A program made the position numbers and the translations under genes. From NCBI GenBank assembly GCA_030266385.1, contig JAJDHY010000002.1:1-39354 (forward strand): 39,354 nt of DNA. Reading direction: 5' to 3'. Below, piece after piece: positions 37,730-39,354 of the stretch. Under the pieces are notes generated by a model. The model was not told where the DNA came from. It worked only from the letters and a program-made list of their open reading frames with translations, and did no database searches. Position 1 is the stretch's first letter. The number at the start of each line of letters is the position of its first letter. This stretch comes from Desulfovibrio sp. OttesenSCG-928-I05. GTDB taxonomy: Bacteria > Desulfobacterota > Desulfovibrionia > Desulfovibrionales > Desulfovibrionaceae.

Positions 37730-38476
37730 ATGGCGAAAAAGGAACGGGCGGATCAGCTCCTCGCGGGGCTGGGACTCGCGGAAAGCCGGGAAAAGGCGAA
37801 ACGGCTCATCATGGCCGGGTTGGTCGGGTATACGCTTCCTTCGGGAAGCTGGATGCGGGTGGATAAACCCGGGCAGCAACTGCCCGGCGATACGCCGCTG
37901 GAAATCAAGGGACAGGACCCCTACGTCAGTCGGGGAGCCTATAAACTGCTGCCCGCTCTGACCGCGTTCTCCCTGCCGGTGGAAGGCGCTGTGGCGCTGG
38001 ATGCCGGAGCATCCACGGGCGGTTTTACCGATTGCCTTCTGCAGCACGGCGCTGCCAGAGTCTACGCCGTTGACGTGGGGCACAGCCAGCTGCACGAAAA
38101 ACTGCGGCAAGATCCGCGCGTTATCAGCATGGAAAAAACAAACCTGCGCCATGCGCCGGCAGATCTGCTGCCGGAAGCGGTGGATATCGTGGTCGCGGAC
38201 CTTTCCTTTATATCACTTACCGTCGTGCTGCCCGCACTGGTCCGTTACCTGAAAGACGGCGGATACATGGCGGCCCTCGTCAAACCGCAGTTTGAACTGG
38301 GACCGCAAGCCGCCCCCAAGGGCGTCGTGCGGGATGAAGCGCTCCGGCAGGAAGCCGTGGATAAAGTGCTGCATGCCGCCGAGGGGCTGGGGCTTAGCCC
38401 GCTGGGGGTCCTGCCTGCCGCGGTCAAAGGCCCGAAAGGCAACCAGGAATACATGGCGGTCTGGCGAAAGTCATAA
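37730..38476 (+). CDS. tlyA: TlyA-family rRNA methyltransferase
   Basis: S4-like N-terminus, SRGAYKLLPAL, ALDAGASTGGFTDCLLQHGA, VADLSFISL, ALVKPQFELG. Confidence 0.92.
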   Translation: MAKKERADQLLAGLGLAESREKAKRLIMAGLVGYTLPSGSWMRVDKPGQQLPGDTPLEIKGQDPYVSRGAYKLLPALTAFSLPVEGAVALDAGASTGGFTDCLLQHGAARVYAVDVGHSQLHEKLRQDPRVISMEKTNLRHAPADLLPEAVDIVVADLSFISLTVVLPALVRYLKDGGYMAALVKPQFELGPQAAPKGVVRDEALRQEAVDKVLHAAEGLGLSPLGVLPAAVKGPKGNQEYMAVWRKS

Positions 38477-38540
38477 TTTTGTTTCCTTCTCTCCCAATCA
38501 TTTCACATAGTTCCTCGAGTAAACAGCGTCTTTCCTCATT

Positions 38541-38678
38541 GACAGCATACTGCCGTTCTGGCAGGAGTGCAGCGGCACGCTTTGACAGTATACTGACAAA
38601 ACGGCAGGGGGCTGTCATTTTTTATTGACAGCATGCTGCCGATATGACACGAGACTGTCAAATGGGCAGCATGCTGTC
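38541..38678. promoter_or_regulatory. Array of about 7 phased 14-bp inverted-repeat operators
   Basis: Starts 38541, 38560, 38584, 38603, 38627, 38646, 38665: GACAGCATACTGCC, GGCAGGAGTGCAGC (weak), GACAGTATACTGAC, GGCAGGGGGCTGTC, GACAGCATGCTGCC, GACACGAGACTGTC (imperfect), GGCAGCATGCTGTC. Confidence 0.85.
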
Positions 38679-38695
38679 GTTTTGGAGGCGATGTT

Positions 38696-39262
38696 ATGGA
38701 TTCACGGTTGTATAGTCCCGAAGGCAGGTTGGTTGCGGAGATCAACTTTGAGATATTTAAAATAAACGGTCTGTTATTACAGGGCGGCGATCAGATGATC
38801 AAAAGCACGTCCCTGACCATTGCCCGGTGGCTCATGCTGCTGGCGCTGGAAGAAATGCCCATCACGGTGGCGCAGGCCTCGCGGCTTGTCGGGATACGCA
38901 GGCAAAGCGCGCAGCGGCTGGTGGATGCCCTGGTGGAAATGGATCTTGTGGAATTCAAGCCGAACCGGAACCACAGACGGGCCATGCTGGCCTGCCTGAC
39001 GGAAGCCGGGAAGGAAAAGCTTTGCCAGGCGCAGAGCGTTCATTCGGCGGCCGCGAATTCTCTGGCTGATGGTATGGAACCGGAAATGCTGCAACAGGCG
39101 CTTTCCGTTCTTCAGAATATCCATCTCCGGCTGCGGGAAAAGGCCCGTGAAAAGCTGGGTTCCGGTGAACGGGAGTTGAACAAGACAATTATGTATCACC
39201 CCGTTTCCGAAGATTTGGAAAACAAGCTGCGGCAGCGAAGTAAAAGCTGCGGTATTTCATAA
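38696..39262 (+). CDS. MarR-like winged-helix transcriptional regulator
   Basis: wHTH-like ITVAQASRLVGIRRQSAQRLVDALVEMDLVEFKPNRNHRRAMLACLTEAGKEKL; SD GGAGG. Confidence 0.78.
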   Translation: MDSRLYSPEGRLVAEINFEIFKINGLLLQGGDQMIKSTSLTIARWLMLLALEEMPITVAQASRLVGIRRQSAQRLVDALVEMDLVEFKPNRNHRRAMLACLTEAGKEKLCQAQSVHSAAANSLADGMEPEMLQQALSVLQNIHLRLREKAREKLGSGERELNKTIMYHPVSEDLENKLRQRSKSCGIS

Positions 39263-39311: not shown

Positions 39312-39354
39312 ATGACCTATCCCACAAGAATACGATACGGCTTACGGCTGCTTG
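39312..39354 (+). CDS. Start of a probable Rrf2-family regulator, 3' end outside window
   Basis: SD GGAGG then MTYPTRIRYGLRLL, similar to Rrf2 N-termini; only 14 residues visible. Confidence 0.45.
   Translation, partial: MTYPTRIRYGLRLL

Follow-up and report, generated by a model that had tools for sequence, protein, structure and literature searches.

An array of palindromic operator-like sites upstream of a marR-type gene in Desulfovibrionaceae

MexR of Pseudomonas aeruginosa is a MarR-family repressor of itself and of mexAB-oprM, which codes for an RND pump of the AcrAB/MexAB type, and the two transcription units are arranged divergently with two sites. The locus described here differs in that the sister species carries marR, rrf2 and the pump genes in one direction, and the genus has four to six sites. 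In operators of the ZitR/AdcR type, palindromes placed over the -35 and -10 are recognized by a dimeric repressor of the MarR superfamily (PMC6372160). Two palindromes likewise overlap the -35/-10 boxes in homologues of the present regulator, but ZitR/AdcR-type repressors are zinc sensors with a TTAACYRGTTAA motif and just one or two sites (PMC6372160), a number exceeded both here (six) and in the sister species (four). NadR of Neisseria meningitidis is a MarR-family protein with three operators in one promoter region; however, these lie far apart around a repeat tract, with possible looping by IHF, and form no packed array (PMC2791445). Pseudopalindromic operators also occur upstream of the MarR gene SCO3205 of Streptomyces coelicolor, where a comparison of upstream regions predicted them and SPR then proved them, but there are two sites and the consensus is TTnAAnnnTCAA (PMC3737563). 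A limited search of open-access papers turned up no MarR promoter having six or more sites.

The window, i.e., the whole stretch of DNA analyzed, is an entire contig (C85; 39,354 nt) of a draft genome that is 54% complete. The features of the region are listed below, with ranks referring to a scoring matrix applied across the window.

37730..38476, + strand: tlyA-like rRNA methyltransferase gene (S4 and FtsJ), the upstream neighbor, as it is by sequence in the sister species
38541..38554: operator site 1, strong; GACAGCATACTGCC; no mismatches; rank 2; TTGACA at 38539
38560..38573: degenerate copy, left half-site only; GGCAGGAGTGCAGC; rank 4,712
38584..38597: operator site 3, strong; GACAGTATACTGAC; rank 1; TTGACA at 38582
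38603..38616: operator site 4, weak; GGCAGGGGGCTGTC; arms perfect against the consensus, core atypical; rank 12; followed by a T run
38627..38640: operator site 5, strong; GACAGCATGCTGCC; rank 4, score tied with rank 3; TTGACA at 38625
38646..38659: operator site 6, weak; GACACGAGACTGTC; one mismatch; rank 8; overlapped by the -35-like ATGACA
38665..38678: operator site 7, strong; GGCAGCATGCTGTC; rank 3; overlapped by the -10-like CAGCAT
38644..38672, + strand: inferred promoter, ATGACA (38644-38649), 17 bp, CAGCAT (38667-38672), at sites 6 and 7
38684..38688, + strand: Shine-Dalgarno sequence GGAGG of marR, read from the sequence
38696..39262, + strand: gene for a marR-like putative repressor of 188 aa (Pfam MarR_2), the presumed array binder
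39312..39354, + strand: start of an rrf2-family gene, MTYPTRIRYGLRLL..., comprising the first 14 codons before the contig end and matching the start of rrf2 in the sister species

Between 38541 and 38678 there are six 14-bp palindromic sites of the form GRCAG-N4-CTGYC and one degenerate half-site. The six show no more than one mismatch to this pattern (starts at 38541, 38584, 38603, 38627, 38646 and 38665), and when the copy at 38560 is included the start spacings are 19-24-19-24-19-19, as given in the preliminary description. The about seven copies counted there come down to six, since the seventh (38560) is without its right half, and with a matrix rank of 4,712 that copy is probably not a functional site. 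The array consists of four strong and two weak sites, the strong ones being 43, 43 and 38 bp apart, where 43 bp corresponds to 4.1 helical turns. Two further details of the preliminary description were borne out: TTGACA precedes or overlaps several copies (sites 1, 3 and 5), and the last copy stands just before the Shine-Dalgarno sequence, with 5 bp from the end of site 7 to GGAGG. The sites are far above chance, as none of 20,000 dinucleotide-shuffled versions of the intergenic region (219 bp) reached four perfect or six near-perfect copies (means 0.001 and 0.03). A strand-symmetric matrix, built from 25 sites that stand before MarR homologues, all of them in other genera, placed 38584, 38541, 38665 and 38627 at ranks 1, 2, 3 and 4 in the 39-kb window (18.0-19.6 bits, against 12.2 for the best match elsewhere in it); because the training sites were chosen by motif resemblance, the matrix arms are not independent of the motif, while the location of the sites before marR and their pairing at 19 bp are. 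The 43-bp tandem unit proposed earlier holds as a spacing pattern, with a triplet (19-19) as its third block, but not as a recent tandem duplication, which is ruled out because the units agree outside the sites at only 2-4 of 15 positions, no more than expected by chance.

The assignment of the downstream gene as MarR-like was confirmed by a PF12802 (MarR_2) match of 45.5 bits (cut-off 27), and its product also gave profile matches to solved MarR/SlyA/TcaR structures. None of the NCBIfam equivalogs SlyA, TcaR, MprA and BilQ reached its cut-off (best 35.6 vs 120). The protein is 51% identical to that of the sister species, and some 30-40 residues at its C-terminal end (window 39150..39259) form a tail absent from homologues.

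The sister species (G011), the only other genome of the genus compared, has four sites before marR at a spacing of 19-26-19, the distal pair with perfect arms. In several other genera the same palindrome stands in the same position before genes for divergent MarR homologues, and this conservation ties the sites to the regulator, so that those of the array are very probably binding sites of the 38696..39262 protein. Elsewhere there is one site in genera g10 and g28, two in several genera, and two plus a distal third 83-84 bp upstream in G138 and G155. The array had been described as far denser than usual, and this agrees with one to three sites in relatives vs six here and four in the sister species. 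Among 348 genomes of the order, at least three close-packed exact sites were found in two, both from the genus of the window (a reversed-pattern control gave one match, in one other genome), although this search demanded exact arms and could overlook arrays of weaker sites elsewhere. One regulator family that uses the same motif with one to six natural operators provides a comparative set for the effect of extra operators on dose response. In L053 and L058, from two species of genus g5, the third palindrome is perfect and lies 83 and 84 bp, respectively, upstream of the pair (about 8 helical turns), and it is possibly a looping operator.

Homologues from other genera usually carry a site pair, with the palindromes exactly 19 bp apart; the first carries TTGACA (-35) and the second a -10-like hexamer, with a 17-bp spacer between them. 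Each homologous pair lies over a sigma-70-type promoter, and the 19-bp step is therefore best read as promoter geometry, namely the -35/-10 distance, which would explain the operator spacing; a special oligomer geometry was rejected on the same ground. Some bases of the hexamers belong to the palindrome itself, so the overlay does not count as independent proof of promoters. In most paired homologues the ATG follows 6 bp after the -10-like hexamer, which suggests that most of these other-genus marR messages are leaderless, whereas in the genus of the window a Shine-Dalgarno sequence sits in a short leader instead. The 6-bp distance is seen in L090, L091, L093, L094, L095, L098, L104 and others. 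The inferred window promoter keeps the -35/17/-10 register of the homologues but is a poor match to consensus (ATGACA/CAGCAT), and a generic promoter scan found none. The distal site pairs have no good -10.

Most probably, the array is the enlarged operator and promoter region of a MarR-type repressor that regulates its own gene. The 38696..39262 product would bind palindromes of the GACAG-N4-CTGTC type as a homodimer, and at the proximal pair (38646 and 38665), over the -35/-10 of the putative marR promoter, it would block RNA polymerase. Farther upstream, the sites in their blocks of some 43 bp (4.1 helical turns) would supply auxiliary operators for higher occupancy and a sharper switch; cooperative or multimeric binding of MarR to the array, as suggested in the preliminary description, is plausible. 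An inducer would bind MarR and cause it to leave the DNA, allowing expression of marR and rrf2 and, judging by synteny with the sister species, transcription of genes for an AcrA-AcrB-OprM-type RND pump from the array promoter. A bolder version is that an efflux switch built on several cooperating operators has arisen in the genus, in which MarR dimers fill the helically phased array as one nucleoprotein complex with an unusually steep or multi-step response to inducer, perhaps with added input from Rrf2; this is put forward tentatively, and the odds are against it.

Repeated palindromes could also act as transcript hairpins, either an attenuator or the tlyA terminator, and not as DNA operators. 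The predicted transcript does fold unusually well (z -6.3), with a stem at 38540..38617 followed by TTTTTTATT, and a scan flags site 4 as terminator-like. However, when the sites were kept and the spacers were shuffled, or the sites flipped and permuted, 18-32% of the controls folded at least as well (24-38% for the sister species, hence 18-38% over the two genomes); the folding thus follows from the repeated palindromes, and the z-score loses its meaning. In the promoter register of the relatives the sites precede the ATG, where the transcript likely starts, and an Rfam search returned only a chance miRNA match. With an RNA element rejected by the site-keeping null and by Rfam, the hairpin reading is very improbable. 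The stem and the TTTTTTATT after it (window 38540..38625) could serve as the tlyA terminator, but were not seen in the sister species.

Another regulator might bind the array in place of MarR or together with it, and the adjacent Rrf2-family protein would be one candidate, as rrf2 comes after marR in both species of the genus. Against this, the same sites occur upstream of marR homologues that have other neighbors and no adjoining rrf2, while close rrf2 homologues elsewhere are found in different gene contexts with no such sites upstream. Rrf2 is accordingly rejected as the general binder, and there is very little chance that another regulator accounts for the array. A sub-case of the autoregulatory reading accepts MarR as the binder and holds that only the proximal pair matters, the extra upstream sites being functionless remnants of operator duplication. 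In its favor, the array already includes one degenerate and two weak copies, and the distal pairs lack a convincing -10, yet three strong distal sites persist among spacers that have diverged to chance level, and the sister species keeps a distal pair with perfect arms. Such remnants are, on balance, unlikely. Under the autoregulatory reading as set out above, the distal sites would retain a role as auxiliary operators.

The likely target of the regulator can be read from the sister species, where the gene order is tlyA, marR, rrf2, RND adaptor, RND permease and outer-membrane channel (AcrA-AcrB-OprM type). The permease matches ACR_tran with 1,282 bits, rrf2 is assigned to Rrf2 by both Pfam and NCBIfam, and the intergenic gaps of 109, 151 and 189 bp leave room for separate or internal promoters. 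The window carries tlyA, marR and the start of rrf2 and then ends before any pump genes, so that the downstream pump is drawn from one sister genome; with that basis, the target of the window MarR probably includes an RND efflux locus. This predicts MarR-controlled RND efflux in a little-studied genus of Desulfovibrionaceae. A search for AcrA in the window's own genome (54% complete) returned only a distant adaptor (29% identity) located elsewhere, as expected for an assembly that is half complete or for a true absence of the pump. The genome scan proposed earlier as a means of defining a regulon, carried out with patterns and not the matrix, revealed none beyond the local gene cluster: outside the array there were 13 exact motif matches vs 8 for a reversed-pattern control, in a genome about half complete, from which regulon targets may therefore be missing. 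Eleven of the 13 were inspected (C153 and C168 fall outside this count); ten fall within predicted reading frames, a mechanical call set in which some frames may be antisense, and one within an intergenic hairpin that is likely a terminator, and a wider regulon was rejected on these grounds. A search for plasmid carriage gave no near match.

The rrf2 gene of the sister species (L088 8592..9119), between marR and the RND pump genes, encodes a protein with three cysteines in the arrangement C-x6-C-x5-C, which is compatible with an Fe-S sensor. Its closest relatives elsewhere adjoin metA-like or cysteine-desulfurase-like genes (named by eye from the sequence). Site pairs of the same geometry but with arms of the GGCAA-N4-TTGCC type were found at L071 (G141:C4:10931) and at G150:C7:109293, and may be operators for a paralogue of the regulator whose specificity has changed.
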